From positions 1 through 40,642 of the IMG/VR virus record IMGVR_UViG_3300009130_000061: a DNA stretch of 40,642 bases, one strand, 5' to 3'. Both the position numbers and the translations under genes were made by a program. This stretch comes from a virus. Shown in pieces: positions 6,435-40,352 of this stretch (position 1 is its first letter; each line of letters begins with the position of its first letter). A model generated the notes under the pieces. That model worked only from the letters and a program-made list of their open reading frames with translations, searched no databases and was not told the DNA's origin.

Positions 6435-7637
6435 ATGTTATTTCAAATAATAGATAACAAACAAGTATGTCCGAGTATATACTCAAATAGACAAATTATT
6501 AATGATCCTCAATATGAAACCTTAACCAAAACATGGTCATATAATTCTTCTCTAAAAGATTATGATATTGATTATGCATCTTTATATGTTGGTGGGAAAT
6601 CATTGGACGAATGTTGTCCTGACATTTTAAAAGATAAATGGGAAAAAGTCAAACAAAAACATTTGGCACTTCTTAAGAGTTTTGAGATTGGTAAGGTTAA
6701 TTATAATGATTATTGTTTTTATGATCTTGTTCCAGAATCTTTTGTGATGGAATATTTTGAAGCCAAGTCTCAAATCACTGATCATGTTCTTAGTACACAG
6801 GAAAAGCCATCAAATTATGATTTCATGGTAGAGTTGTCTGAATTGGTTAATGATATAGCAAAGAATAAATTAACCTTAAACACATCAGGATTAGATGAAT
6901 CCCTACATCAATTGAGAACAAGAAAGTTCAAAGACAAACTTCACAGGATAAGTCCTTATGTTAAGTATAATGTCTTTGGAACAATCACAGGACGACTAAC
7001 CACAAAGAAGGATTCATTTCCAATTCTTACAATGGACAAAAATTATAGAAAGATAATTCAACCAAAGAATGATTGGTTTATTGAATTGGATTTTAACGCA
7101 GCAGAACTAAGGTGCTTGCTGGCACTAAACGGAGTTGATCAACCAGAGATGGACATCCATGAATGGAATGGGAAAATCTTAAATAAATTATTTGATCATA
7201 TAATGGACAGAGATGAAATTAAACGTAAGATCTTTAGCTGGCTTTATGGGCCGCCAAATGCTTCTCTTGGTATCCCTGAAATTGAGGGATATTATAATAA
7301 AAAAGAGGTGCAAAAGAAATATTGGAACGGTACACAGATAGAAAATCCTTTTGGTCGGATCATTGAGGCCGATGAATTCCACGCTTTAAACGCAATCATT
7401 CAAAGCACCACATCAGACACATTTTTAAGGCGAGCAATCGCAGTAAATAAAATGTTAAAGAATAGAAAGTCCTTTACAATGGGGCTTATTCATGATAGTA
7501 TGGTGATTGACTATGACCGTAATGACAAAGATTTATTGGAAGATTTAATAAAAGAATTTGGTAACACCGAGTTGGGTAAATTCAAAGTAAATGCTAGCTT
7601 GGGAACAAATTTTGGTAACATGAGGAAGTTTCGATGA
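6435..7637 (+). CDS. Short family-A DNA polymerase (no exonuclease domain)
   Basis: A 400-aa protein with all three family-A polymerase motifs. Motif A is ELDFNAAELR (~residue 217, metal-binding Asp plus E and R). Motif B matches R-x3-K-x3-F-x3-YG exactly (RDEIKRKIFSWLYG, ~258-271). Motif C is LIHDS (~351). The template-binding FGTITGRLTT lies before motif A. Motif C carries Ser where most family-A enzymes have Glu (HDE); the essential Asp is kept. At 400 residues only thumb, palm and fingers fit; no 3'-5' exonuclease motifs are visible in the N-terminal 150 residues. It could replicate DNA or act in repair or primer processing, since a full DnaE lies at 25.8 kb. The start is fixed by the promoter and overlaps no other gene; the next gene overlaps by ATGA. 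Confidence 0.9.
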   Translation: MLFQIIDNKQVCPSIYSNRQIINDPQYETLTKTWSYNSSLKDYDIDYASLYVGGKSLDECCPDILKDKWEKVKQKHLALLKSFEIGKVNYNDYCFYDLVPESFVMEYFEAKSQITDHVLSTQEKPSNYDFMVELSELVNDIAKNKLTLNTSGLDESLHQLRTRKFKDKLHRISPYVKYNVFGTITGRLTTKKDSFPILTMDKNYRKIIQPKNDWFIELDFNAAELRCLLALNGVDQPEMDIHEWNGKILNKLFDHIMDRDEIKRKIFSWLYGPPNASLGIPEIEGYYNKKEVQKKYWNGTQIENPFGRIIEADEFHALNAIIQSTTSDTFLRRAIAVNKMLKNRKSFTMGLIHDSMVIDYDRNDKDLLEDLIKEFGNTELGKFKVNASLGTNFGNMRKFR

Positions 7638-7945
7638 GCACCAAACAATTTAATAAGCTTGTAAGGGATCGCATTCCCGAAATTATTAAAGAAAAGGGTA
7701 AGAGCTGCAAATTCAGAATCGCAGACACTAAAGAATATCGCCGGAAGTTAATGGAAAAACTCCAAGAAGAAACGTCAGAATTCATTGAAACTCCCTGTGT
7801 TGAAGAATTGGCAGATATTCAGGAAGTCATTGATGCTCTTTTGAAGGAGTATAGGTGGACTGGCCTGAAAGCGGTGACAGAATTTAAAAAAATAACACGC
7901 GGTGCTTTTCGTGACAAGATTATTCTTGAGGAGGTTTCAGAATAG
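7634..7945 (+). CDS. MazG-like nucleoside triphosphate pyrophosphohydrolase
   Basis: A 103-aa protein beginning with FNKLVRDRIPEII, the hallmark of small all-alpha NTP pyrophosphohydrolases related to MazG and HisE (COG4997-type). Acidic residues expected to bind Mg2+ are seen in EKLQEETSEF (~42-51) and VEELADIQEVIDAL (~56-69), which form the E..E...E..D pattern. Such enzymes hydrolyse NTPs to NMP and pyrophosphate, clearing damaged nucleotides or, in some phages, altering the (p)ppGpp response. The ATG overlaps the polymerase stop and its own TAG overlaps the next GTG start, so the three genes look translationally coupled. The substrate is not predictable from sequence. Confidence 0.8.
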   Translation: MSTKQFNKLVRDRIPEIIKEKGKSCKFRIADTKEYRRKLMEKLQEETSEFIETPCVEELADIQEVIDALLKEYRWTGLKAVTEFKKITRGAFRDKIILEEVSE

Positions 7946-8778
7946 TGGACACCATCATCGGTCTTGGAAACGCCGGTTGCAATATAGCAGACGAGTTTGC
8001 CAAATATTCCCAGTATTCTATCAAAAAAATCGATGTTGGTCTTGAGAAGACCAAGACCACCTTCCCCATAAAAGAGTGTGAAAAGATTGAAGATTACGAA
8101 GAAAAACTGCCCACACTTCAGCATTTTTTCAGGGGTATCCATGGTGATATCCTCTTTGTCGTCGGTGGTGGTGGAAAAATATCATCAGCCTCCCTAGCCA
8201 CCTTACGTTATTTAAAAAATAAATGCAAAATTAATGTTTTATATATCCGACCAGAGTTATCTTTACTAAATGAAACCCAATCAAAACTAGAAAGATTGGT
8301 TTACAACGTTTTTCAAGAGTATGCAAGATCCGGTGTGTTTGAAAGACTCTATTTGGTATCAAATGAAGAAGTCGAAGCGGTCCTCGGAGGCGTCTCTATT
8401 AAAGATTACTATAATAAAATTAATCAAATGGTTGTTTCCACAATTCATATGATTAATGTTTATAATAACAACGAATCATTAACAAATACCTTTAGTGATC
8501 TGCCCGTGGGGGCAAGGATTACATCCATAGGCATGAGCGATTTAGAAAAAAATGAGGATAATATGTTTTTTTCTCTTGACAGCGTGTCTGATATCGTGTA
8601 TTATTACACACACAATAAAACAAAGATTGAAACGGATCCAGAATTAATGAGCAAAATAAGAAAATCAATATCGACTCATAAGGAAGAAGGTTATAGAGTT
8701 ACTTATGGAATTTACGAAACGGATTACGATCAAGATTATATTTATTGTTTAAATCACACTTCGGTGATACAAAAATAA
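7945..8778 (+). CDS. Divergent FtsZ/tubulin-superfamily protein
   Basis: A 277-aa protein with a GTG start overlapping the upstream stop and a strong GAGGAGG site at about 7929. The order of motifs follows FtsZ: nucleotide-binding GLGNAGCN (6-13), then GDILFVVGGGGKISSAS (67-83) where FtsZ has the GGGTGTG phosphate loop, then a strand VLYIRPEL. Next come LYLVSNEEVEAVLGG (135-149), matching FtsZ 'ITIPNDKLLKVLG', and a helix. After that comes TNTFSDL (180-186), roughly where FtsZ has NxDFxD. The tubulin signature is altered (K-I-S-S replaces T-G-T-G) and the first catalytic Asp of NxDxxD is missing, so GTP hydrolysis may be weak or absent. There is no C-terminal tail for FtsA/ZipA binding. It could form a phage filament (PhuZ-like), or poison host FtsZ. 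The fold is inferred from motif order only. Confidence 0.7.
   Translation: MDTIIGLGNAGCNIADEFAKYSQYSIKKIDVGLEKTKTTFPIKECEKIEDYEEKLPTLQHFFRGIHGDILFVVGGGGKISSASLATLRYLKNKCKINVLYIRPELSLLNETQSKLERLVYNVFQEYARSGVFERLYLVSNEEVEAVLGGVSIKDYYNKINQMVVSTIHMINVYNNNESLTNTFSDLPVGARITSIGMSDLEKNEDNMFFSLDSVSDIVYYYTHNKTKIETDPELMSKIRKSISTHKEEGYRVTYGIYETDYDQDYIYCLNHTSVIQK
8576..8604 (+). promoter_or_regulatory. Intragenic sigma70-type promoter for the SSB gene
   Basis: Inside the 3' part of the FtsZ-like gene: TTGACA (8576-8581), exactly 17 bp, then TATTAT (8599-8604). The -35 box is a perfect consensus. The expected start is near 8611, giving a leader of about 220 nt before the SSB ATG. The leader contains the hairpins described at 8785-8825. 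A weaker extended -10 (TGATACAAA, 8765-8773) is also present closer to SSB. Confidence 0.6.
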
Positions 8779-8834: not shown

Positions 8835-9566
8835 ATGGCGTTAGATTTAGCTAAAATGAAGGCTAAACTCCAAGAGTCAGAATCTGGAGGGAAGTCAAGA
8901 TCAGATAATGTGTGGTGGAAACCACAAGAGGGGGATCAAGAAATTCGCTTGGTTCCAACTGAAGATGGTGATCCATTTAAGGTTTATCACTTTCATTATA
9001 ATTTGGGTGATGGTGCCCGTGGTGGTGTTCTTTGTCCCAAACGACAATTTGGTGACAACTGTCCAATTTGTGATTTTGCTTCAAAACTGTGGCAAGAAGG
9101 CACTGACGATAGTAAGAAAATGGCTAAGTCGCTTTTCGTTCGCCAACGATTTTTCTCTCCTGTGATGGTGAGAGGTGAAGAAGAAACGGGAGTACGTGTT
9201 TGGGGTTATGGCAAGACCATTTATGAGACATTGTTGGGTCTTGTTCTTAATCCTGATTATGGTGATATCACTCACGTAGACACAGGCGTTGATTTTACAT
9301 TGACGTATACACTCCCAAAAACAAAGGGTGCATTTCCGCAAACCAATCTGGTTCCAAAGCGTAAATCATCTGCACTTGCAAAAACAAAGAGTGGGATTAA
9401 AGAAATCCTAGAATCCATTCCCGAAATTGATTCATTGTTTCAACGCAAGTCACCAGCCGACGTAAAAGCAATCTTGGAGTCGTTCCTAAACCCGATTGAT
9501 GGTCCAATGGTTGAAGATGTTGGAGTAAGCAGTGTTGACGAAGCCATTCGTGAACTATCTGCGTAG
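8835..9566 (+). CDS. Single-stranded DNA-binding protein (T4 gp32-like)
   Basis: A 243-aa protein with a clear AGGAG site 10 nt upstream. The N-terminal basic helix (LDLAKMKAKL) resembles the gp32 cooperativity region. The core has a gp32-type zinc site: His52/His54 followed by Cys67, Cys76 and Cys79 (CPKRQFGDNCPIC). After the core is VWGYGKTIYETLLGLV, also typical of gp32. The C-terminus is acidic and ends in an SVDEAIRELSA helix, the region that contacts replication partners in T4. It coats ssDNA during replication and recombination and works with the RecA/UvsX encoded next. Its own promoter, structured leader and strong terminator make it an independently controlled transcript, as expected for a protein needed in large amounts. 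Confidence 0.9.
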   Translation: MALDLAKMKAKLQESESGGKSRSDNVWWKPQEGDQEIRLVPTEDGDPFKVYHFHYNLGDGARGGVLCPKRQFGDNCPICDFASKLWQEGTDDSKKMAKSLFVRQRFFSPVMVRGEEETGVRVWGYGKTIYETLLGLVLNPDYGDITHVDTGVDFTLTYTLPKTKGAFPQTNLVPKRKSSALAKTKSGIKEILESIPEIDSLFQRKSPADVKAILESFLNPIDGPMVEDVGVSSVDEAIRELSA

Positions 9567-9644: not shown

Positions 9645-10769
9645 ATGAGTAACGGAAAATTATCATCAGTAGATATATTAAAGATGATCAATAAAAAGGC
9701 TGGCAGAACCGTCGCCTTTGCAGGTGATCAAGAAAACCCGGCAGACATTAAAGATTGGATCCCCACCGGATCACGATGGCTCGATTCCATCATTTGTCGC
9801 GGTCAGTTAGCAGGCATACCAGTTGGACGCTGCACAGAGATCGCAGGTCTTGAGAGTTCAGGCAAGTCTTATATGGCTGGTCAAATCGCTCGTGAAGGCC
9901 AGAAGAAAGGTATTAAAGTGTTATATTTTGATTCTGAAGCCACAATGACAAGCGAGTTCTTGGAGAAGCTAGGGTGTGATATGGATAGTGACAACCAAAT
10001 TGTTATAATCCAACCAGAAGACGTTGAAATGGTTCTAGAAACTATGGAAATGTGTATGGCAAATGACCCAGATAATCGTTATTTATTTATTTTGGACTCA
10101 CTGGCTATGACTCCGTGTCGTGCAGACTTAGAAAAAGATTTTAATCCACAATCATCAATGGCACAAATGCCACGGGTATTGTCGATTGGTATGAAGAAGC
10201 TCACAGTTTCGCTGTCCAAAACACAATCAACATTTCTTGTCCTTAATCAACTAAAAACAAATATTAATGTTAACAATCCTATGATGATGTTATCGCAGCC
10301 TTGGTTCACTCCTGGTGGCAAAGCAATCATTTATTCTTATTCATTACGATTGTGGCTGACAGGGTTAAAGGGTAAGAAGACTTTTATTGAAGACGATAAT
10401 GGTTATCGAATTGGTTCTGAAGTTAAAACAAAATTAGAGAAATCTAAATTCGGAACTCAAGGACGCATTTGTAACTTTAAGATTTTGTGGGGGGGCGATG
10501 AAGTGGGAATTATGAATGATGAATCTCTCTTGATGGCTATCAAACCATCTGAGAGGCTTAAAAATTCGGGTGCGTGGTTTACGTTGGAAGGTTATGAAAA
10601 GAAATTCCAAACAGCCACGTTCCCTAAACTTATGAAAAGCGATCCAAAGTTCGCAAAGCTCGTCTATGATATTATGGATGAAGAAGTCATCCGAAAGTTT
10701 GAAAACAAAACAGGAAAAGCAGAAGATTTTTATGATCTAGAAGAACAAACTCTAGAACAGGAGAAGTAG
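9645..10769 (+). CDS. uvsX: RecA/UvsX-type recombinase
   Basis: A 374-aa protein. Walker A is GLESSGKS (~68-75) and Walker B ends LFILDS (~147-152). The loop QLKTNI (~203) matches the RecA/UvsX DNA-binding region that follows 'VLNQ'. The N-terminal PTGSRWLDSIICRG is the typical start of the RecA core. It catalyses ATP-dependent strand exchange and starts recombination-dependent replication with SSB and the helicase. UvsX rather than bacterial RecA is preferred because of the phage context and divergence, but the two are one family. It lies just after the SSB terminator with only a weak ribosome-binding site, so its level is probably kept below that of SSB. The next ATG directly follows its stop. 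Confidence 0.88.
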   Translation: MSNGKLSSVDILKMINKKAGRTVAFAGDQENPADIKDWIPTGSRWLDSIICRGQLAGIPVGRCTEIAGLESSGKSYMAGQIAREGQKKGIKVLYFDSEATMTSEFLEKLGCDMDSDNQIVIIQPEDVEMVLETMEMCMANDPDNRYLFILDSLAMTPCRADLEKDFNPQSSMAQMPRVLSIGMKKLTVSLSKTQSTFLVLNQLKTNINVNNPMMMLSQPWFTPGGKAIIYSYSLRLWLTGLKGKKTFIEDDNGYRIGSEVKTKLEKSKFGTQGRICNFKILWGGDEVGIMNDESLLMAIKPSERLKNSGAWFTLEGYEKKFQTATFPKLMKSDPKFAKLVYDIMDEEVIRKFENKTGKAEDFYDLEEQTLEQEK

Positions 10770-11565: not shown

Positions 11566-12531
11566 ATGTCTCAAAAAATATTAATCATTGACGCGATGAA
11601 CATGTTCATAAGATCTTATGTCATGAACCCAAGCCTTGGAGCAAATGGTGCGCCCATTGGAGGAACAAAGGGTTTCTTGATGTCTCTACAAAAAATGACA
11701 AGAGATATACAGCCAGACAATGTTGTGGTTGTGTGGGATGGTGGTGGCGGAAGTGCGAAAAGACGCACAATTGTTAAGGAATATAAAGAAGGGCGCAAAC
11801 CTCTTAAGCTCAATCGTGCATATAAAGGAATGTCAGCACTTGAGGAATCCCAAAACCGCTACGATCAAATGAGAAAGACCATTGAATATCTTAATGAAAT
11901 GCCAGTGGCTCAATTGATGGTGGAAGACATAGAAGCAGATGATGTAATCGCCTATATCTGTCAAATGCCCTCGTTAAAAGAGGATGTTAAAATTATTGTA
12001 TCAATGGATAAAGATTTTTATCAGTTGTGTGATGACAAGACAATGATTTATAGCCCAGTGAAAGATGAATTCTTAAACAAAAAGAGAATCATCGAACAAT
12101 TTTCTATTCATCCCAACAATTTTGCGATGGCCCGCGCCATAGATGGTGACAAATCTGACAACTTAGAAGGGATCAAAGGAGCAGGACTCAAGACGATTGC
12201 TAATAAGTTTTCCTTTCTTGCTGAAGAAAAATCATATACTCTTGATGACTTGTTTAATCATTGTCGGAGAGACGAGTCGGGATTAAAGTTGTATAAAAAT
12301 ATTTTATCAGAAAAAAATAAAGTTGAGCTAAATTATAAATTAATGCAACTCTATTCGCCCTACATTTCAACCCAAAGTTCCCAACATATTAAAACTACTG
12401 TTGAAAATTTCAAGCCGTCATTTAACCGAACTGAAGTTCTAAAGATGATGTCACTTGATGGCATTCACGAGTTCAACTGGAACTCACTTTTTCAAAAATT
12501 TAGATCGATTATTGACGACGCTCGCGACTAA
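11566..12531 (+). CDS. 5'-3' exonuclease / flap endonuclease (T4 RNase H-like)
   Basis: A 321-aa protein with a GAGGA site before the ATG. It opens with ILIIDAMNMFIRSY (metal-binding Asp) and carries VVVWDGGGG, then VEDIEADDVIAY (~118-129, acidic cluster), then SMDKDFYQL (~145-153) and DGDKSDNLEGIKGAG (~193-207, helix-hairpin-helix with catalytic Asp residues). These are the motifs of the FEN/PIN 5' nuclease family (T4 RNase H, PolA N-domain, T5 FEN). It removes RNA primers and 5' flaps on the lagging strand. Because the phage PolA-type enzyme lacks a 5' nuclease domain, this protein supplies that activity separately. It belongs to the run starting with recA and ends before the helicase promoter. 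Confidence 0.9.
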   Translation: MSQKILIIDAMNMFIRSYVMNPSLGANGAPIGGTKGFLMSLQKMTRDIQPDNVVVVWDGGGGSAKRRTIVKEYKEGRKPLKLNRAYKGMSALEESQNRYDQMRKTIEYLNEMPVAQLMVEDIEADDVIAYICQMPSLKEDVKIIVSMDKDFYQLCDDKTMIYSPVKDEFLNKKRIIEQFSIHPNNFAMARAIDGDKSDNLEGIKGAGLKTIANKFSFLAEEKSYTLDDLFNHCRRDESGLKLYKNILSEKNKVELNYKLMQLYSPYISTQSSQHIKTTVENFKPSFNRTEVLKMMSLDGIHEFNWNSLFQKFRSIIDDARD

Positions 12532-12555: not shown

Positions 12556-12584
12556 TTGACAAAGTTTTTTGATTGAGGTATGAT
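12556..12584 (+). promoter_or_regulatory. Sigma70-type promoter for the helicase gene
   Basis: TTGACA (12556-12561), 17-bp spacer, TATGAT (12579-12584). The start site is expected near 12591, giving a ~24-nt leader with CGAGG at about 12605 before the ATG at 12615. The TTG at 12573 lies within this promoter and is not a usable start. Confidence 0.85.
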
Positions 12585-12614
12585 CTAGAAACACATCAGG
12601 CACACGAGGTTACA

Positions 12615-13991
12615 ATGTCCACAAATGATAAAATTTCTTTCTCTAAATATGGTAAAATTTTTCAAGAAAAGCTCGCTTTTATTATCTTAGATGATCGTGT
12701 TTTTGCTGATCGAATGATGGAAGTTTTAAATATTGAATTCCTAGAATACAAGTATCTTCAAGCATTTACAGAAAAAGTCTTCCAATATAAAAGAAAATAT
12801 GGATCGCAACCATCTCACGATACGATGAAGACAATCATTAAGTCCGGTCTGGATGATCTTAATGAAGCGTTACAGAAACAACTTCGGGAGTATTATGCTC
12901 GCGCACTTACAAATATTAACATACTTGAATCGTGTGAATATATTAAGGATACAGCACTGGATTTCTGTCGCAAACAGAAGTTACGAGAGGCGATGATGAA
13001 GTCGTCTACACTCCTTCAAAAGTGCTCATTTGACGAGATTTCTGTACTCATTAACAACGCCCTTAAAGCAGGTGCCGACGCAGACTTTGGGTACGATTAT
13101 ATCAAAGATTTTGATAAAAGATTCGAGTTCTCTGGTCGTGATACCATCACTACTGGCTGGCGACGAATGGATGAAATCACTGGTGGTGGGGGAGGTCGCA
13201 AAGAGTTAGGAGTTGTGATTGCTCCAACTGGTGTGGGTAAATCAATGGTGCTTGTCCACCTGGGAGCAACCGCAGTTAAAGCAGGGATGACCGTGGTTCA
13301 TTATACTTTGGAATTGCGCGATACAGTTATTGCCAATCGTTATGATTCGTGTATCACTGGTATTCCTCTGGATGAATTGATGGATCGCAAGCCCGAGATT
13401 AGGGAAATGATTAATGATTGCGATGGCACCCTTATTGTTAAAGAATACCCTACCAAAACTGCCACAACAAACACAATTCGAGCACACATAGAAAAATTAA
13501 AACAACAAGGAATAATCCCAGACATGATCATCGTGGATTATGCTGATCTTTTACGCACCCTATCAACCCGACGCGAAAAACGAGAAGAACTTGAATCCAT
13601 CTATGAAGAACTCCGAGCCATTATGATGGAAAATAATGTAGTTGGCTGGACAGCATCTCAAACAAATCGAACAGGACTGCAAGCAGAAATTATTACTATG
13701 CAGTCAATTTCAGAGGCATTTAACAAGTGTTTTGTTGCCGACCTTATCTTTTCGGTATCAAGAACAACAGAAGATAAACAAAAGAATGGTGGAAGAATTT
13801 ATATTGCGAAGAATCGTAACGGTCAAGATGGTCTAGTGTTTTCAATCTTTATGGACACAGCAAATATTGATATTAAAGTGTTGGAGAGGTATGATCCCAA
13901 CCAAGCAACAGGTCCAAGTCTTTCTCAAGAAGAACAACAAAAATTTATGTTAAACAAATATAAGAAACTAATGAAGGGAGCGACTATGTAA
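12615..13991 (+). CDS. DnaB/gp41-type replicative DNA helicase
   Basis: A 458-aa protein. The ATG at 12615 is chosen because a CGAGG site precedes it and the further-upstream in-frame TTG lies inside the promoter. The C-terminal RecA-like core begins at TTGWRRMDEITGGG. Walker A is APTGVGKSM (~203-211). The H2-like block is VVHYTLELRD. Walker B is MIIVDYADLL (~303-312) and the H3-like block is GWTASQTNR (~346). The N-terminal ~150 residues are helical, as in DnaB/gp41. It unwinds the replication fork as a hexamer. No primase domain is fused and none was seen in the window. The stop overlaps the ATG of the ribonucleotide reductase gene. Confidence 0.9.
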   Translation: MSTNDKISFSKYGKIFQEKLAFIILDDRVFADRMMEVLNIEFLEYKYLQAFTEKVFQYKRKYGSQPSHDTMKTIIKSGLDDLNEALQKQLREYYARALTNINILESCEYIKDTALDFCRKQKLREAMMKSSTLLQKCSFDEISVLINNALKAGADADFGYDYIKDFDKRFEFSGRDTITTGWRRMDEITGGGGGRKELGVVIAPTGVGKSMVLVHLGATAVKAGMTVVHYTLELRDTVIANRYDSCITGIPLDELMDRKPEIREMINDCDGTLIVKEYPTKTATTNTIRAHIEKLKQQGIIPDMIIVDYADLLRTLSTRREKREELESIYEELRAIMMENNVVGWTASQTNRTGLQAEIITMQSISEAFNKCFVADLIFSVSRTTEDKQKNGGRIYIAKNRNGQDGLVFSIFMDTANIDIKVLERYDPNQATGPSLSQEEQQKFMLNKYKKLMKGATM

Positions 13992-20706: not shown

Positions 20707-22908
20707 TTATTCCTCATCAACTAGAGTCATAGCCATTTTGAAGACTTGACCAGTCACATTATTTCTAATACGAATATGGTCAGATTCCTCGAAAAGTGTC
20801 CAATCACCACGCTCATTCTTCATGTGGAAATCACCTGTGTATAGATTGGTTGCATAGATATCCGTCACCGGAGCTGCATCTGTACCTATCTGTGTCACAC
20901 CCGTTAGTGTACCAACTGCCAATGAAGCCATCCCATCAGTTACCTCATCACCAGTAAGGGTGGTGAAAGTACCAGCAGCCTTAGAAGCTGCACCGATTAT
21001 TGTACCATCGATATTACCACCATCTAAATTAACACTATCACAATGCAATGAAGCAAGGTTAGCTGCACCAGATCCAGATAGGGTAGTGAAAGTACCAGCC
21101 GCCGCCGACGCCCCACCGATGGTCACACCATCAATATTACCACCATCAAGATTAACGCTGTCACAATGAACCGAAGCAAATTGAGCAGCACCTGAACCAC
21201 TAACAGTTGTACCAACTAGAGCAGCGAATGTACCAGCAGCAGCAGAAGCCGCCCCAATGGTTACACCATCGATATTACCACCATCAAGATTAACACTATC
21301 ACAATGAAGTGATGCAAGGTTAGCTGCACCAGAACCACTAAGTGTGGTTACTACCGCCGTTGAAGGACTAGCAGCGCCAATAGTTGTTCCATCAATTGAT
21401 CCACCATTAAGATCCATAGTTGTGACAGTACCCATATCGGCTACTGTACGACTAGCATTGGTCCAGTTGTTTGCCATTGATGCAATTCCAAGTGCGTTAA
21501 TAGTATCAACATCACGAGAGCCATCTAGAACAAGGGCTTTATTCGCAGCACCCGTACCATCAGTAATTCCATCAAGTTTTTCCAAATCAGTTTCATTAAG
21601 GTCCGCAGAACCGATGATAAAGCTACCACCAGCAGTTACAGAACCAGAAGTTACAACATTTGGCCCTTGAAGGTCAACAGATGCTGAAAAGAACGCTGTT
21701 GAAAGAGCAGCATATTTGGTTGAACCAAGGCTCAAATCCAAAGATGTACTATAATCAATAGTTGCTGAGTCTTCCCCAAGAGTAAACGAAGATGCACTTA
21801 CAAAACTAGAAGCAGAAAGCGAAGTCGCTGCTATAGTTGTTGCAGTAACCGCTGCCGCAGAAGCCGCACCGATAATTGTGCCATCAATGTTACCCCCATC
21901 TAAGTTAACACTATCACAATGAAGTGATGCAAGGTTAGCTGCACCAGAGCCAGTAAGTGTGGTTGCAGCAACAGCTGCAAACGTACCAGCCGCAGCCGAT
22001 GCCGCACCGATGGTCACGCCATCAATGTTGCCTCCATCTAAGTTAACACTATCACAATGAAGTGATGCAAGGTTAGCTGCACCAGAACCACTAATGGTAG
22101 TGGCAGTTACGACTCCCAAGGTTGATGTACCCGTCACCGTCATCGCATCAATGTGACCAGCGTCAGCATGAACTTCCGCCCATTGTTTAGTCGAAGAACC
22201 AAGATCGCTAGTTGAGTCATTAGCAGGGATAAAGTCTGTATCACAAAGCCCGTTGAACTCAATTACATTCCCAGAGTTAGTTCCCAACACGACATCACCG
22301 TTAGCAGTCATTTGGGTAAATGTAGCAGCGGCTGTTTCAGCTGCCCCAATTACTGTTCCATCGATATTACCACCATCAAGATTAACACTGTCACAATGAA
22401 TCGAAGCAAATTGCCCAGCACCTGAACCAGAAATAGCAGCACCTGCTATAGATCCGTCAACAGCTACAGAAGCACCCTGAAGTGCGCCCGAGCCAGAAAG
22501 TGCGCCAGCTACTTGAAAGCCTGCACCGCTTGCCAACATCGTAGCATAAACGCTACCACCTAATCTCAAGTCAAGATTAGCGCCGTCATAAAGAACCGCC
22601 GCTAATTCTGTAGCGGTAGCACTACCACCGATTTGAAGACCAACATCACTTGTCCCTTCAGTGCCACTTACCGCAGCGATAATTTTCTTATCTGAAACTT
22701 CCAGTGTACTTTCAGTTTGTTGAACACTGTTAATTGTATAAACATCAAGCTCAGTAATTTTTGCGTAAGACGCAGTTAAAGAGTTGATATTTTTAAGTTG
22801 AACACCCGATGCAGATGATGTCATAATTTGTGTCATCGTCTGTCCGTTGTGTCCAACTTGGATTTGTCCGAGGGAGCCTGTTTCTCCCTGAATACCCCAT
22901 TTAGCCAT
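20707..22908 (-). CDS. Repetitive tail-fibre protein
   Basis: A 733-aa protein on the opposite strand, with AGGAG just before its ATG. It is rich in Gly, Ala, Ser and Thr and has six copies of HCDSVNLDGGNIDG plus one degenerate copy, each followed by TIGAAS-like text. These repeats are typical of beta-helical fibre shafts in marine phages. The N-terminal region (TGSLGQIQVGHNGQTMTQIM) would attach to the virion. The C-terminal ~50 residues (LYTGDFHMKNERGDWT...) form a compact module shared with the fibre gene at 24.9-25.4 kb. No intramolecular chaperone peptidase domain is seen. It probably contributes to host adsorption. A divergent ~300-bp gap separates it from the LamG genes. Confidence 0.85.
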   Translation of the reverse strand: MAKWGIQGETGSLGQIQVGHNGQTMTQIMTSSASGVQLKNINSLTASYAKITELDVYTINSVQQTESTLEVSDKKIIAAVSGTEGTSDVGLQIGGSATATELAAVLYDGANLDLRLGGSVYATMLASGAGFQVAGALSGSGALQGASVAVDGSIAGAAISGSGAGQFASIHCDSVNLDGGNIDGTVIGAAETAAATFTQMTANGDVVLGTNSGNVIEFNGLCDTDFIPANDSTSDLGSSTKQWAEVHADAGHIDAMTVTGTSTLGVVTATTISGSGAANLASLHCDSVNLDGGNIDGVTIGAASAAAGTFAAVAATTLTGSGAANLASLHCDSVNLDGGNIDGTIIGAASAAAVTATTIAATSLSASSFVSASSFTLGEDSATIDYSTSLDLSLGSTKYAALSTAFFSASVDLQGPNVVTSGSVTAGGSFIIGSADLNETDLEKLDGITDGTGAANKALVLDGSRDVDTINALGIASMANNWTNASRTVADMGTVTTMDLNGGSIDGTTIGAASPSTAVVTTLSGSGAANLASLHCDSVNLDGGNIDGVTIGAASAAAGTFAALVGTTVSGSGAAQFASVHCDSVNLDGGNIDGVTIGGASAAAGTFTTLSGSGAANLASLHCDSVNLDGGNIDGTIIGAASKAAGTFTTLTGDEVTDGMASLAVGTLTGVTQIGTDAAPVTDIYATNLYTGDFHMKNERGDWTLFEESDHIRIRNNVTGQVFKMAMTLVDEE
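21004..22398 (-). repeat. Six near-identical 42-bp fibre repeats
   Basis: Each copy encodes HCDSVNLDGGNIDG, at 21004-21045, 21127-21168, 21265-21306, 21880-21921, 22018-22059 and 22357-22398. Spacing is always a multiple of three (123, 138, 615, 138, 339 bp), so recombination between copies would keep the frame and change fibre length. Confidence 0.9.
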
Positions 22909-25776: not shown

Positions 25777-28700
25777 ATGATTAAGTCTTCTATCCCATTC
25801 GTCGGTCTTCATGCACACTCCACTGCGGGTTCTCCCTTTGACGCGATAGGATACCCCCAACAACATATGGACTTTGCTTATGAAAATGGTTGTGATGCCT
25901 TGGCATTGACTGATCATGGTAACTGTAATGGTTTAGCCTATCAGGTTCTTCATGCAAAGTCAATGGAAAAAGAAGGCAAGAACTTTAAACCAATTTATGG
26001 CTGCGAAGCCTATTTTATTCCCTCCCTCAAAGAGTGGGAAGAAGTTTACAACCAAAGCAAAACAGACAAGAAGACAAAAAAAGACGCAACAAGCGGAGGC
26101 TTTACAGTAGAAGACGAATCAGAAACTAAATCAGTGAAAGACACTCTCAACCGTCGCCGACACTTGGTCCTCTTAGCCCAAAATCAAACAGGTCTTAATA
26201 ATATCTTTGAGTTAATTTCACAATCATATAAGCCAGGAAACTTTTATCGCTTCCCGAGAATTGATTATGATCTACTGCGAACCCATAGTGAAGGCATTAT
26301 CGCTTCTTCTGCCTGTTTGGGTGGAGTTTATGCAGGAGATTTGTGGGAAAACATGGACAATGGGGATGAGGCTGTCCTAAATGCTATGCGTAAAACTACT
26401 GAAAATATGCAAAGTATTTTGGGTGATCGATGGTATGCAGAACTACAATGGTTTAAACATCCAACCCAGATGAAATTAAATACCTTTATAGTTCAAATTG
26501 CTAAGGAATACGGGCTTGAGTTAATCTCAACTGCTGACAGTCATTACTTTAATCCTGATGTTTGGAAATCGCGAGAACTATACAAGCGATTCAGACCAGG
26601 AGCAACCGCATTTTTTGGTGAAATGGCTGAAGATTTGGATGAATATGGGATGGAGCTGTATCCCAAGAATGGCGATCAAATGTTTGCATCATATAAAAAG
26701 TATTCATCCGAATTAGGTTATAAATTTGATGATGAATTGGTTAAGGAATCAATTGCCAGAACACATCACATCGCGCACAATCGAATTGAAAAGTTTTATC
26801 CAGATAATACCGTTCGACTTCCGTCATTTGTTATTCCCGAAGGTATGACTGAAGATGAAGCATTGAGTACCGCATCGATTAATAATTTACAAGCCAAAGG
26901 GTTTACAGATCCAGTTTATGTTGATCGTCTTGAGCATGAATTACAGGTTATCAAAGGTCGTGGCTTCAGCCGCTACTTTTTAACAATGAAAGCAATTGCA
27001 GACAAAGCAACATCAATGCAAATTACAGGTCCATCACGCGGATCTGCCGGTGGTTCTCTGGTCGCGTATGTGCTTGGAATTACTCAAGTTGATCCAATTA
27101 AATATGGATTGCTCTTTTCTCGTTTTCTAAGATCGGACGCAAAAGATTATCCAGATATTGATTATGACGTTTCTGATCCAATGACACTAAAGGAATCATT
27201 AGTTAAAGAATGGGGGGAGGATAATGTCGTTCCTATTTCAAATTGGAATACACTTCAATTGCGGTCTTTGATTAAAGATCTATCAAAGTTTTATGATATT
27301 CCTTATCAAGAGGTTAATATCGTAACAAAGAAGATGGTCTTTGAAGCTATCGGTCCAGCCAAGAGAGAGCACGGAATAAAGGCGGGTGTCTACGAACCAA
27401 CGTTCGAAGAATTAATGAAATATAGCACAAGCCTTCAGGAATTTTTAAAGAAATACCCACAAGTCGAACCGCATGTTAGAACTCTAAAGGGGCAAGTACG
27501 ATCTCAATCCCGCCATGCTGGTGGTCTGGTTGTGGGAGAAGAATTAAATAAATATATGCCATTAATCTATTCAGGTGGAGTAAGACAAACCCCTTGGACC
27601 GAAGGTCAAAATGTTCGCCACCTCGAACCAATGGGATTTATTAAGTTTGACATTCTGGGCCTTGGGACTCTAAGGATGATCGAAGATGCAATCTTAAGAA
27701 TTCTTAAGAAAACTAATCCCAATCCTACATTTGAGAATGTAAAAACATTCTATGACCACAATCTTCATCCAGATGTATTAGACTTCAATAATAAAGAAGT
27801 ATATAAAAATATATTTCATAAAGGAAAGTGGGCGGGAGTATTTCAGTTTACAGAAACAGGCGCTCAAGCATTCTGTAAGCGAGCAAAGCCCACAAGTTTA
27901 ATCGATATTGCAGCGATTACTTCAATCTTTAGACCCGGACCACTAAGCGCAAAGGTCGATAAAGAATATGTTAAAGCAAAGCAAACTCCAGAAGACATTA
28001 AATACATTCATCCAATTGTTAAGGAAGTGACAGAAGAAACTTATGGTTTCTTAATCTTTCAAGAGCAGATTGCCCTCTTAGCTCATCGTTTGGGCAAAGA
28101 TATCTCGCTTGACGAAGGCAATCTATTACGCAAATTATTAACCAAGAAAGGAACTGGCAAAGGTGCAGAGGAAAAGCTTAAAATTTATAACAAATTCGTG
28201 GCAGGATGCACAGAAAAAGGAATTAAAAAGGAGCAGACAGAGACTCTTTGGAAAACTTTTGAGTATTTTAGTGGTTACGGCTTTAATAAGTCCCATGCTG
28301 TCGGTTATAGTATACTATCTTACCAGTGCGCTTGGCTATTAAATTACCACCCAACACAATGGTTAGCAGCTTTCTTAAATAAGGAACCCGAAACTCGTAA
28401 AGAAAGAGCAATTAACGTTGTAAAGAATTTGGGTTATGAAATCCAAGAAGTTAACATTAATTTATCTGGAAGAAACTGGGAAGTCTCACCAGAAGGCAAG
28501 CTGGTTCAACCCTTGACCTCGATCAAAGGCTTGGGTGATAAAGCGATGGATCAAATTCTTGAACATCGACCATTCAACACTATTGAGGAATTGTTATTTA
28601 ATGAGGAAATAAGTTATTCTAAACTTAATAAAAAATCTTTGGATGTCCTTGTGCGCTCTGGGGCATGTGATACGATTGTGGATGATCGGTTTAAACATTG

Positions 28701-29166
28701 TCGGCATTTATGGTTATCTATTATAGACAGCCGACCAAAAAATAAGAAGAAGTTAGACGAAAATATAAAGAATAATCTAAGCGAACCGGATTTTTCCGAA
28801 GAAGAAAAGATTGAAAATGTTGTAAGTTTAACAGGGATCTTTCCTTTTGAACTGGTCTTAGACAAAAAGGTTAAAGAAAGATTGGAACTTTTAAAGGTTC
28901 CCCCTTTGGCCGAATATGATAAAGATTTGCAATTGTGTTGGTTTATCCCACGAGAAATCATTCCTAAAAAAACTCGTAATGGTAAAACATTTTGGATTAT
29001 AAACGCAATTGACGAAACATGTCAAACAACAAATATTAAATGTTGGAATGTGCGACCCAATGAAGTGGTGCATGTGAATCGACCGTATGTGAGCAAACTG
29101 GAACATGATCCTCAATGGGGATTTTCTACTCGTTCCATTAAGTGGAATTTTAAATTAGTAGGTTAA
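25777..29166 (+). CDS. dnaE: DnaE-type (family C) replicative DNA polymerase
   Basis: A 1129-aa protein, close to bacterial DnaE (~1160 aa). The N-terminal PHP domain starts at FVGLHAHSTAGSPFD and includes LALTDHGN. The polymerase core has GPSRGSAGGSLVAYVLG (~418-434), the catalytic PDIDYD (~458-463) and the third Asp in KFDILGLGTL (~623). The SRHAGGLVVG block is present (~571). Near the C-terminus are a helix-hairpin-helix (LTSIKGLGDKAMDQIL) and an OB-like domain from ~1010. All catalytic Asp residues are present, so it should be active. Family-C polymerases are uncommon in phages, and this phage also carries a family-A one. Proofreading could come from the PHP domain or a separate exonuclease; none is seen here. 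The start agrees with the DnaE N-terminus. Confidence 0.93.
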   Translation: MIKSSIPFVGLHAHSTAGSPFDAIGYPQQHMDFAYENGCDALALTDHGNCNGLAYQVLHAKSMEKEGKNFKPIYGCEAYFIPSLKEWEEVYNQSKTDKKTKKDATSGGFTVEDESETKSVKDTLNRRRHLVLLAQNQTGLNNIFELISQSYKPGNFYRFPRIDYDLLRTHSEGIIASSACLGGVYAGDLWENMDNGDEAVLNAMRKTTENMQSILGDRWYAELQWFKHPTQMKLNTFIVQIAKEYGLELISTADSHYFNPDVWKSRELYKRFRPGATAFFGEMAEDLDEYGMELYPKNGDQMFASYKKYSSELGYKFDDELVKESIARTHHIAHNRIEKFYPDNTVRLPSFVIPEGMTEDEALSTASINNLQAKGFTDPVYVDRLEHELQVIKGRGFSRYFLTMKAIADKATSMQITGPSRGSAGGSLVAYVLGITQVDPIKYGLLFSRFLRSDAKDYPDIDYDVSDPMTLKESLVKEWGEDNVVPISNWNTLQLRSLIKDLSKFYDIPYQEVNIVTKKMVFEAIGPAKREHGIKAGVYEPTFEELMKYSTSLQEFLKKYPQVEPHVRTLKGQVRSQSRHAGGLVVGEELNKYMPLIYSGGVRQTPWTEGQNVRHLEPMGFIKFDILGLGTLRMIEDAILRILKKTNPNPTFENVKTFYDHNLHPDVLDFNNKEVYKNIFHKGKWAGVFQFTETGAQAFCKRAKPTSLIDIAAITSIFRPGPLSAKVDKEYVKAKQTPEDIKYIHPIVKEVTEETYGFLIFQEQIALLAHRLGKDISLDEGNLLRKLLTKKGTGKGAEEKLKIYNKFVAGCTEKGIKKEQTETLWKTFEYFSGYGFNKSHAVGYSILSYQCAWLLNYHPTQWLAAFLNKEPETRKERAINVVKNLGYEIQEVNINLSGRNWEVSPEGKLVQPLTSIKGLGDKAMDQILEHRPFNTIEELLFNEEISYSKLNKKSLDVLVRSGACDTIVDDRFKHCRHLWLSIIDSRPKNKKKLDENIKNNLSEPDFSEEEKIENVVSLTGIFPFELVLDKKVKERLELLKVPPLAEYDKDLQLCWFIPREIIPKKTRNGKTFWIINAIDETCQTTNIKCWNVRPNEVVHVNRPYVSKLEHDPQWGFSTRSIKWNFKLVG

Positions 29167-35385: not shown

Positions 35386-36954
35386 ATGAAACATTTTGAA
35401 TCTGGTCGCCAACTCAATGAAAAGATTATGGTTGGCGTAAATAAACTCGCCGACGCTGTGGGGGCTACTCTTGGTCCACGCGGACGCAACGTCATCCTTA
35501 AAGGCAACAATACCAAACCTATCATTACTAAAGATGGTGTGACTGTTGCAAAATTCTTCGATTTAGAAGATCCTATCGAGAATCTTGGAGTGCAAGTTAT
35601 AAAGCAAGCATCCGAATCGACCAACAATACGGCAGGAGATGGCACAACCACTTCAACGGTTCTCTCTCGTGCTATTCTAGAGAAAGCCCAGATGCATCTT
35701 TCAACAAATGTATCTCCTATCGAATTAAAACGAGGCATCGACACCGCAATTTTAACAATTATTGAGGAATTGAGAGAAAAGGCCAAACCTGTTTCAACCC
35801 AAGAGGAAATTGAACAAATTGCTACCATTTCTGCAAATGGTGACAAAGGTATTGGTAAACTAATCGGCGCAGCCGTAGATCAAGTCGGCAAAGATGGTGC
35901 AATTACAATTCAAGAAGCTAAGTCCAATGAAACTTCTTTAGAATTAACTGAAGGTTTTAGATTTGACTCTGGCCTATTAGCTAACGCCTTCATTACTGAT
36001 GAGCGACGTGGCGCGATGAGGCATGAAGACTGTCTTATCTTGGTTACAGATAAAAACATTACAACTATTGATGAAATCTTGCCAGTTCTTGAGATCGCCG
36101 CCCGTGATGGCCGACCACTTATCTTAATCGCCGAAGACATTTCAGGCCAAGCACTAGCAGCGATGATAATGAACGCGATGAAAGGAGCCATGAAAGTTGC
36201 AGGCATCAAAGCCCCACGCTATGGTGAAGAACGAAGAAACATTCTGTCGGACTTATCGATCTCTACCGGCGCAACGTTCATTTCTCGTGAAAGCGGAATA
36301 CAATTTCGTTCCGTTAAGTTGGAGCATTTTGGCACAGCCACCACCGTCGAGGCGGGCAAAGCATTTACCACCATTGTTGGCGGCAATCAAGATGACGAGG
36401 CAGTTGAAAAGCGAATTGAAGATCTTAAGTCTCAAATTGAATCCGAAGAAAGTTTAAATATATGCGAAAAGATTCAAGAAAGAATTACTCGGTTGGCATC
36501 TGCCATCGCAATCATTAAAGTCGGTGGCTTGACCGAGGTTGAGATGATTGAAAAGAAACATCGTGTTGAAGATGCGCTTGAGGCAGTTAGTTCCGCACAA
36601 CAAGAAGGGATTATACCCGGAGGTTCTTCTGCTCTATTACGAGTTGCCCGTAAAATAAATATTGAGACAGAAAACAAGGAACAACAACTCGGAGTAGAAA
36701 TTATAAAGGAAGCGATTAAAGCACCATTTAGAAAGATGGTGTTAAATGCTGGGCTGTCACCGGATATTTATTTAGAAAAAGTAGAAAACCATACCAATCC
36801 TGATTCTGGATTAAATGTGACCACTGGTGAGATTGTTAACATGTATTCTTATGGAATTATTGATCCATTTAAGGTCGTGCGTTGTGCTCTTGAAAATGCG
36901 GCGTCTGCTGCATCAACACTGCTTTTAACCGATCACGCGATTGTGGAGGAATAA
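35386..36954 (+). CDS. groEL: GroEL-type chaperonin (complete)
   Basis: A 522-aa protein close to full length (E. coli 548). ATP-binding LGPRGRN and GDGTTTSTVL (~85-94) match GroEL, as do RVEDALEAVSSAQQEGIIPGG (~390-411; the catalytic Asp of RVEDAL is present) and the end INMYSYGIIDPFK-like block TGEIVNMYSYGIIDPFKVV with LENAASAAS. The apical domain (~190-370) is present. The C-terminus stops at HAIVEE and lacks the GGM repeat tail that lines the GroEL cavity. It could fold phage virion or replication proteins. The GroES-like gene at 16.1 kb may be its lid. Phage-encoded GroEL is known but rare. Confidence 0.95.
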   Translation: MKHFESGRQLNEKIMVGVNKLADAVGATLGPRGRNVILKGNNTKPIITKDGVTVAKFFDLEDPIENLGVQVIKQASESTNNTAGDGTTTSTVLSRAILEKAQMHLSTNVSPIELKRGIDTAILTIIEELREKAKPVSTQEEIEQIATISANGDKGIGKLIGAAVDQVGKDGAITIQEAKSNETSLELTEGFRFDSGLLANAFITDERRGAMRHEDCLILVTDKNITTIDEILPVLEIAARDGRPLILIAEDISGQALAAMIMNAMKGAMKVAGIKAPRYGEERRNILSDLSISTGATFISRESGIQFRSVKLEHFGTATTVEAGKAFTTIVGGNQDDEAVEKRIEDLKSQIESEESLNICEKIQERITRLASAIAIIKVGGLTEVEMIEKKHRVEDALEAVSSAQQEGIIPGGSSALLRVARKINIETENKEQQLGVEIIKEAIKAPFRKMVLNAGLSPDIYLEKVENHTNPDSGLNVTTGEIVNMYSYGIIDPFKVVRCALENAASAASTLLLTDHAIVEE

Positions 36955-38678: not shown

Positions 38679-40352
38679 ATGATGACCGCATTTAATACTT
38701 TTTCAACCACTTCTAAACCTATTGTGCCCTTGGTTCCGAGTTCTTTCCCGGTGCCAAACGTTGGGTTGTCCCCCAGTTATCAACTCCCTGATGCGCTGCG
38801 CCATAATCCACCAGGAGCCGATTTCGTCCGTTTTACTGATTGGATAGGAGATTATGACACGACCATGAAACAATTCTCAGCTACATACACTAACCCCATC
38901 GAGAGGTTCAGTGAATTAGGTGATAATGCTTATGACGCTGACGCAAAGAAGTTTTCTATAGATATAAAAATGATTAATGAAGAACCTATGTTGTGCTTCA
39001 CCGATAACGGTAAGGGCATGATGCCAGCAATCATGCAATTACGCTTCTTTCAGGCGCGAAATATTACACGGGAACAACGAGGCCAACATACTTTAGGAGC
39101 CAATGGGGTCGGCGCAAAGGGAGCACTATACGGTCTGGGTGACAAAGTTGATGTAATTAGTAAGCCTAACGGTGCCCCAGATTGTTTTGTTATAGGAAGA
39201 AATTATAAAGGGTTAGTCCGATGGGATTGTCCCGTATCTAAACTATTAAACCCTAGTCACGGAGAATTATATAGGCAAGTTAAAGCTATTTGGGATTCTT
39301 GCGGACCTCAAGCTGATCATGGCACTTTAATAATGGTTAGAGATTTACGCAAAGGTTTCCAGAATTTATATTCGTTTCCAGCAAATACCACGCACTTTCG
39401 TGATGCGGTAGCATCTGGACTAGGATTGGTTTATGACAGGTTGTTAAGCGACAAATTTCAAATCACTGTTTGTGATAAAACTATAAGTCGCGCCGATATT
39501 ACTAAAGGCGGAACTCATTTAACAGATTATGATGAAGAATTCGAGATAATAGATCCTGAGACAGATAAGAAGGTTGTGTTTAGAACTCAATTGTGGCAAT
39601 TCTCTACAAGGATTAAAGACGACCATAATCGCTTAATTTATTGGAGGAATAGCAGGTTTATAGGAAGTGGCATTCGCAGTATTTTTCGCACCAAAATTAA
39701 TAATCAGCAGGAATTTGAGAAAATACAACTCCATGTTTTTGTTAAAGATAATGCTGATGGGCTTTTAAATATTCAAACCAACAAAACAGTTGATGGTTCT
39801 AAACAGGCTCATAAGTCATTTCAGGCGGAAATCCGGAGTCGCTATAAAGCAGCATTTGATGAAATTGCGCCCACTGGCAAAAAAGATTCTGAAGAAGAAA
39901 GCTTACAAAAGGCATTAGCGCACAGCAACGAGGTAAAAGATACAGCACTTGCACAAGTGGTTAAAGGTTTTACCGGGTTTGCTCTTGACGGAGGAGTGGA
40001 GGATTTTACCAAACCGATACCCAAAAGACTGGGAGGAAGTGCTATTCAATATGATAAGCCCGATAAGGAATATAAGCCGAAAGATACGCCTTTTGAATTG
40101 AAGGTAGAATGCGCTTTCCTTGATCATTTACGCCCCGTCGAGTTTGACAAAAAGATTTTACGCGGAAATCGTCTAGAAGTGTCCATGACAATTAATCTGA
40201 GAGATCCTTTAAATCAAGAGATCTTTACGTCTAAAGTAAAGTATGTTAAGGGGAAATTGGCTACTCAACGCCGTGAAGAACTGTTACGTTGGCTTCTCTT
40301 AGAAGAAGACGAGGGTTGTGAGAAATTGGAAAAGTGCTGGGCACAAGAATAA
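38679..40352 (+). CDS. MORC-like GHKL ATPase
   Basis: A 557-aa protein. The N-terminal GHKL ATPase motifs follow MORC proteins: ERFSELGDNAYDAD (~75-88; Asn and Asp bind Mg-ATP), LCFTDNGKGMM (~104-114, N-box/G1-like) and TLGANGVGAKGALYGLGDKV (~139-158, ATP lid). Further on, DHNRLIYWRNSRFIGSGI (~307-324) resembles the MORC 'YhNnRlI' S5-domain segment. Residues ~385-460 are helical and charged. GHKL/MORC ATPases clamp DNA and compact it; prokaryotic relatives occur in restriction systems. MutL, gyrase B and Hsp90 are less likely because the 'DNA.DA' and lid forms fit MORC best. AAGGAG is 4 nt from the ATG at 38679 and 7 nt from that at 38682; the latter may be used. Confidence 0.82.
   Translation: MMTAFNTFSTTSKPIVPLVPSSFPVPNVGLSPSYQLPDALRHNPPGADFVRFTDWIGDYDTTMKQFSATYTNPIERFSELGDNAYDADAKKFSIDIKMINEEPMLCFTDNGKGMMPAIMQLRFFQARNITREQRGQHTLGANGVGAKGALYGLGDKVDVISKPNGAPDCFVIGRNYKGLVRWDCPVSKLLNPSHGELYRQVKAIWDSCGPQADHGTLIMVRDLRKGFQNLYSFPANTTHFRDAVASGLGLVYDRLLSDKFQITVCDKTISRADITKGGTHLTDYDEEFEIIDPETDKKVVFRTQLWQFSTRIKDDHNRLIYWRNSRFIGSGIRSIFRTKINNQQEFEKIQLHVFVKDNADGLLNIQTNKTVDGSKQAHKSFQAEIRSRYKAAFDEIAPTGKKDSEEESLQKALAHSNEVKDTALAQVVKGFTGFALDGGVEDFTKPIPKRLGGSAIQYDKPDKEYKPKDTPFELKVECAFLDHLRPVEFDKKILRGNRLEVSMTINLRDPLNQEIFTSKVKYVKGKLATQRREELLRWLLLEEDEGCEKLEKCWAQE

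Follow-up and report, generated by a model that had tools for sequence, protein, structure and literature searches.

FtsZ1, a divergent FtsZ/tubulin-fold protein encoded in the replication cassette of a large uncultured tailed-phage lineage

Tubulin-family proteins are known as GTP-driven polymers. TubZ, the segregation tubulin of plasmids and phages, is a longer, tailed protein that works with a DNA-binding adaptor (TubR). PhuZ has a catalytic Asp in its T7 loop and a C-terminal tail serving assembly (PMC3678025), and GroEL has been linked with tubulin-bearing jumbo phages (PMC7824862). Among cellular relatives, FtsZl1 has changed T6, H7 and C-terminal elements and, if it assembles, was proposed to do so in a different way (Makarova and Koonin 2010; PMC2875224). 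Here we describe a further family, termed FtsZ1, on which no publication was found in the open-licence literature.

The FtsZ1 gene was analysed in a 40,642-nt stretch of viral DNA (IMG/VR record IMGVR_UViG_3300009130_000061, positions 1 to 40,642; hereafter the window), where it occupies 7945..8778 on the + strand and encodes 277 aa from a GTG start, just as an earlier note on this DNA had delimited it. Read directly from the sequence, a ribosome-binding site, GGAGG (7930-7934; whole start region 7930..7947), stands ten bases 5′ of the start, and the GTG shares one base with the stop codon of an upstream MazG-like gene (TAGTG, 7943-7947); translation of the two genes may be coupled. A terminator scan of the window gave results at chance level, and the promoter-like sites in it exceeded those of shuffled sequences, with none tied to the FtsZ1 start. 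A single-sequence search found 46 relatives, and an alignment search found relatives encoded in at least 590 stretches of viral contigs, some of these stretches being the same virus from several samples; the largest contigs of the group measure 130-205 kb. Since the dN/dS values against relatives are approximately 0.04-0.12, as low as those of gp32 and polA, and relatives are so numerous, FtsZ1 is a real gene under strong purifying selection rather than a chance reading frame. Five queries spanning the family had no match in 50,697 phage records. One relative (L131) was found in a WOR-3 metagenome-assembled genome (CP070664.1), where the phage cassette in the bacterial pseudo-chromosome either is probably a binning contaminant or hints at the host; taking WOR-3 as the host is unsafe, the piece concerned (2249311-2254350) lying between runs of 100 Ns in a scaffolded bin.

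Searches of the window FtsZ1 against Pfam, PHROGs and NCBIfam returned nothing over threshold. PF00091 did not match it and matched 4 of 28 family members at E 0.043 or worse. A PDB phmmer search placed an FtsZ below threshold (E 0.58) with residues 132-190 aligned in the correct place. One weak PHROG link, to phrog_24038 (function unknown), was present in one of four members (best E 7e-5). When the family profile was compared with a 25-member FtsZ set, a 6-member PhuZ set and six control families from the same phages, FtsZ was matched at E 3e-4 (probability 39%) and PhuZ at E 5e-4 (probability 30%), about a hundredfold better than the controls (E 0.06-0.61) yet low in absolute terms. An AlphaFold model built from a 28-member alignment had a pLDDT of 93.8 and a pTM of 0.91, and Foldseek returned 679 PDB matches to it at E≤1e-3, the best 50 of which were all FtsZ, TubZ or tubulin, headed by 7ojd (E 2.7e-12, TM 0.68/0.62). 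The same fold was recovered with a model of a second member (L043, 40% identical to the window FtsZ1). FtsZ1 is thus predicted to have the two-domain FtsZ/tubulin fold with the core helix H7, and the FtsZ/tubulin-like identity first proposed from motif order was borne out on both models. The Foldseek results on the two models ruled out an unrelated Rossmann fold, and identity as a defence-system protein was rejected, as PADLOC gave no match. Within the FtsZ/tubulin superfamily, FtsZ1 forms a new divergent family, one placed there by its predicted structure and only marginally by sequence.

All motifs quoted from the sequence before were located: GLGNAGCN at residues 6-13, VVGGGGKISSAS at 72-83, LYLVSNEEVEAVLGG at 135-149 and TNTFSDL at 180-186. 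The first, the T1 loop (7960..7983, + strand as are all elements below), is kept across the family. At the T4-equivalent loop, GGGGKISSAS (residues 74-83, 8164..8193) stands in place of GGGTGTG and, as aligned by profile, is shorter by two residues, the family consensus being GSGx[IV]S[GS] instead of GGGTG(S/T)G, and the T3 glycines are absent. TNTFSDL (8482..8502), the T7 equivalent, is among the least conserved stretches, with its residues ranking 134-255 of 277 for conservation; D or E occurs at residue 181 in 42/89 sequences and at 185 in 38/89, leaving no conserved acidic position. Between H7 and the following strand, FtsZ1 has approximately six residues fewer than E. coli FtsZ, and no helix H8 follows the loop in the AlphaFold model. 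FtsZ1 ends directly after the last strand with neither a linker nor a C-terminal partner-binding peptide, and 89 members span 274-299 aa. Therefore, the altered TGTG signature and missing tail that had been noted for this one protein are family-wide; the reported change of one catalytic Asp also holds, but understates the case, as no T7 acidic residue is conserved throughout the family.

Part of the nucleotide pocket is kept in FtsZ1, namely T1, P103, N140 and N160, and T5 and T6 are also conserved. Across 112 sequences the top positions were H168, M169, C12, Q124 and R128, of which H168, M169, Q124 and R128 rank 1, 2, 4 and 5 of 277; the T1 glycines, P103, N140 and N160 are strongly conserved as well. 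Q124, R128 and S129, identical in 112/112 sequences, belong to QEYARS (residues 124-129, 8314..8331), a family-specific extension at the C-terminal end of H5 before S6. In the core helix H7 (residues 152-174, 8398..8466), N160 lies towards the nucleotide and H168-M169-x-N171 towards the opposite, lower end. Because the strongest conservation falls on QExxRS at the end of H5 and on HMxN in lower H7, FtsZ1 likely carries a new interface; judged from fold topology, both elements would occupy the end farthest from the nucleotide.

Compared with FtsZ, FtsZ1 shares the fold and the T1, T5, T6 and H7 layout, but is only ~10% identical and lacks a conserved T7 Asp (NxDxxD), besides GGGTGTG, H8 and the C-terminal tail, and differs from bacterial FtsZ in sitting in a replication cassette. 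TubZ is matched in fold (2xka, E 1e-11, 15% identity), but FtsZ1 has no tail, and no DNA-binding adaptor of that kind was recognised beside it, its constant neighbours being polA, MazG-like and gp32 genes. With PhuZ it has in common a phage-encoded tubulin fold (BFVD matches at E 2e-6 to 5e-6) and the profile similarity given above, and GroEL is often present in FtsZ1 genomes; it differs in the absence of a conserved T7 Asp or tail, in its neighbours and in the lack of a multisubunit RNA polymerase. The closest viral structure in BFVD was A0A6J5RW92, labelled ‘FtsZ Cell division GTPase’, of an uncultured Caudovirales phage (TM 0.82 over the query, E 4.9e-12). At 452 aa and 16% identity, this protein, compared here by structure, may be an extended FtsZ1 relative or another family. 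The T1 segment IGFGQAGGKVVDKFVEY of CetZ resembles IGLGQAGCNIADEFAKY of several FtsZ1 members and CetZ2 was among the Foldseek matches of the L043 model, but the profile match to CetZ was limited to the first 20 residues (E 1.9). FtsZl1 retains GGGTG(S/T)G, bears coiled-coil extensions and is encoded in cellular vWA/membrane operons, whereas FtsZ1 keeps H7 and has lost the T4 signature.

The position of the gene next to a single-strand DNA-binding protein (SSB), remarked on from the window, proved constant across the lineage. The window cassette comprises, all on the + strand, a polA-like protein (family A DNA polymerase, 400 aa, 6435..7637), the MazG-like protein (103 aa, 7634..7945), FtsZ1, a gp32-type SSB (8835..9566), a UvsX/RecA-type recombinase (9645..10769), an exonuclease (phrog_107, 11566..12531) and a DnaB-like replicative helicase (12573..13991), and the same order was found wherever it was readable. 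The gp32 label is solid (E 7.6e-13); profile support for the MazG-like label is weak (PRA-PH E 0.19), and only some of the relatives have this gene. Among loci fetched by gp32 or polA that had room for it, FtsZ1 was present in 142/145, a proportion valid for the FtsZ1 lineage only, as the seed profiles were built on FtsZ1-bearing loci. In 134/134 loci carrying both, FtsZ1 precedes gp32 and shares its strand, most often at a distance of no more than 100 bases. The three FtsZ1-less loci (L202, L217 and L307) have other genes inserted or end early, and do not show true loss. FtsZ1 was absent from the related cassettes of Flavobacterium phage immuto, Microcystis phage Mel-JY01, a Lysinibacillus phage and a 484-kb phage, all of which have the SSB-RecA-exonuclease part, and the possibility of an FtsZ-like gene in the sister cassettes of cultured phages was rejected accordingly. 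Because these cultured phages lack it, FtsZ1 was gained in, or kept only by, its uncultured lineage, a large lineage of tailed phages whose replication-recombination cassette includes it as a core gene.

Several other genes in these genomes were recorded. In the Mel-JY01 locus, a protein similar to S-adenosylmethionine lyase (L128:6598-7884, Pfam E 4e-10) is encoded directly before the SSB. Only the C-terminal part of the family A domain was matched in the polA-like protein of the window, and the genome also encodes a 1129-aa DnaE-type replicative polymerase (25777-29166). A 733-aa protein of no clear family (20707-22908, − strand) is the sole long gene running against the direction of the others, and a 557-aa protein (38679-40352) is weakly similar to type II restriction enzymes (PADLOC E 2e-6).

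We favour, with a probability of roughly 45%, the reading that FtsZ1 serves as a scaffold or adaptor linked to replication and has a degenerate site that may still bind nucleotide. Such a protein would bind nucleotide weakly or as a structural cofactor and would run no GTPase-driven filament cycle; it would be made together with gp32 or another replisome protein and probably be bound to that protein, the contact being made by the conserved lower face of the N-terminal domain of FtsZ1. If it self-assembles at all, the assembly would be static, or else the partner or DNA would template it. This reading is supported by the fold, the fixed cassette, the probably coupled start, the low dN/dS, and the contrast between an unconserved catalytic loop and the conserved H168, M169, Q124 and R128. 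Against it, neighbouring genes may share expression timing only, and the conserved T1, T5, T6 and N160 leave room for nucleotide binding and hence for a regulated polymer. A canonical cytomotive GTPase role is unlikely. Of the replication-linked filament envisaged in the earlier note, the replication link is thus favoured by the fixed cassette, while the filament is doubtful because T7, the loop needed across a filament for a complete GTPase site, has been shortened and is not conserved.

The other function offered there, inhibition of host division, would make FtsZ1 a decoy subunit acting on host FtsZ filaments as a cap or a poison, its conserved lower face binding host FtsZ and its degenerate upper face not being extendable. 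By topology, the conserved residues do cluster at the end that normally meets the nucleotide face of the next subunit, and phages are known to target FtsZ with other proteins, such as T7 Gp0.4 and lambda Kil (PMC13423816). However, known FtsZ inhibitors are small unrelated proteins, and the interface residues of the T7 loop in canonical FtsZ are not kept in FtsZ1. Moreover, Gp0.4 is early and absent from many T7 relatives (PMC13423816), whereas FtsZ1 is a core gene at nearly every locus, and a core replication-cassette gene under purifying selection would be an unusual place for host takeover. We therefore judge a decoy unlikely, and weaker than the scaffold or adaptor.

It is also improbable that FtsZ1 forms a nucleotide-gated filament which positions or segregates phage DNA in the manner of PhuZ or TubZ, with an unusual interface replacing T7. 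The tubulin fold and the conserved pocket residues of T1, T5, T6 and H7 would suit such a filament, and GroEL (phrog_5725), with its jumbo-phage link (PMC7824862), is encoded at 35386-36954 of the window and in 9/13 large relatives. But FtsZ1 has no conserved T7 acidic residue, GGGTGTG, T3 glycines, H8 or tail. Further, PF00562, searched for multisubunit RNA polymerase, was found in none of the 13 large relatives, and a chimallin protein query had no match in 14 contigs, the latter a weak test run without a positive control; both results agree with the earlier view that this is not the PhuZ of a nucleus-forming phage.

A second FtsZ-like gene, FtsZ2 (344-409 aa), which differs from FtsZ1, was found with PF00091 in 2/13 large contigs. 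Its members include L331:5390-6481 and L330:5194-6213, both on the − strand, and loci L332-L411. At least 234 viral-contig stretches encode it, and one member searched against the cultured-phage collection had no match. In 31 non-redundant members the T4 GGGGGTGS and T7 QxFDSKDL are essentially invariant, T1 is intact too, and the FtsZ2 profile matches FtsZ at E 2.6e-10. The FtsZ1 and FtsZ2 profiles match each other at E 0.05, no closer than the controls, so that FtsZ1 as a recent duplicate of FtsZ2 was rejected. All six FtsZ2 contigs of ≥127 kb also carry FtsZ1, and wear of the nucleotide site is greatest in the FtsZ1 clade whose seven sampled members all have FtsZ2; yet FtsZ1 as a regulatory partner (cap or co-subunit) of the intact FtsZ2 is very improbable, given the control-level profile match, the absence of FtsZ2 from the window (albeit a fragment) and its absence from 14/16 FtsZ1 contigs tested, six of them of 155-192 kb, which shows that FtsZ1 is independent of FtsZ2. 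The same clade supports the scaffold or adaptor, as its nucleotide-site residues C12, D30 and G77 drift while Q124, R128, S129, H168, N171 and Q276 are kept.

More tentatively than the scaffold or adaptor role itself, FtsZ1 may be a pseudo-GTPase that has left the cytoskeleton to become a fixed replisome- or SSB-associated component, with some members keeping a second, intact FtsZ. These findings suggest that a cytoskeleton protein was turned into part of the DNA-replication equipment of a phage. Unseen by Pfam, NCBIfam and cultured-phage collections, the family is probably filed as hypothetical in hundreds of uncultured viruses. If the reading is true, FtsZ1 would be a test case for a cytoskeletal GTPase becoming something else, as a large SSB-linked phage family that conserves a non-catalytic face of the tubulin fold, and one that is testable through clear point mutants (R128 and H168) and a clear neighbour (gp32).
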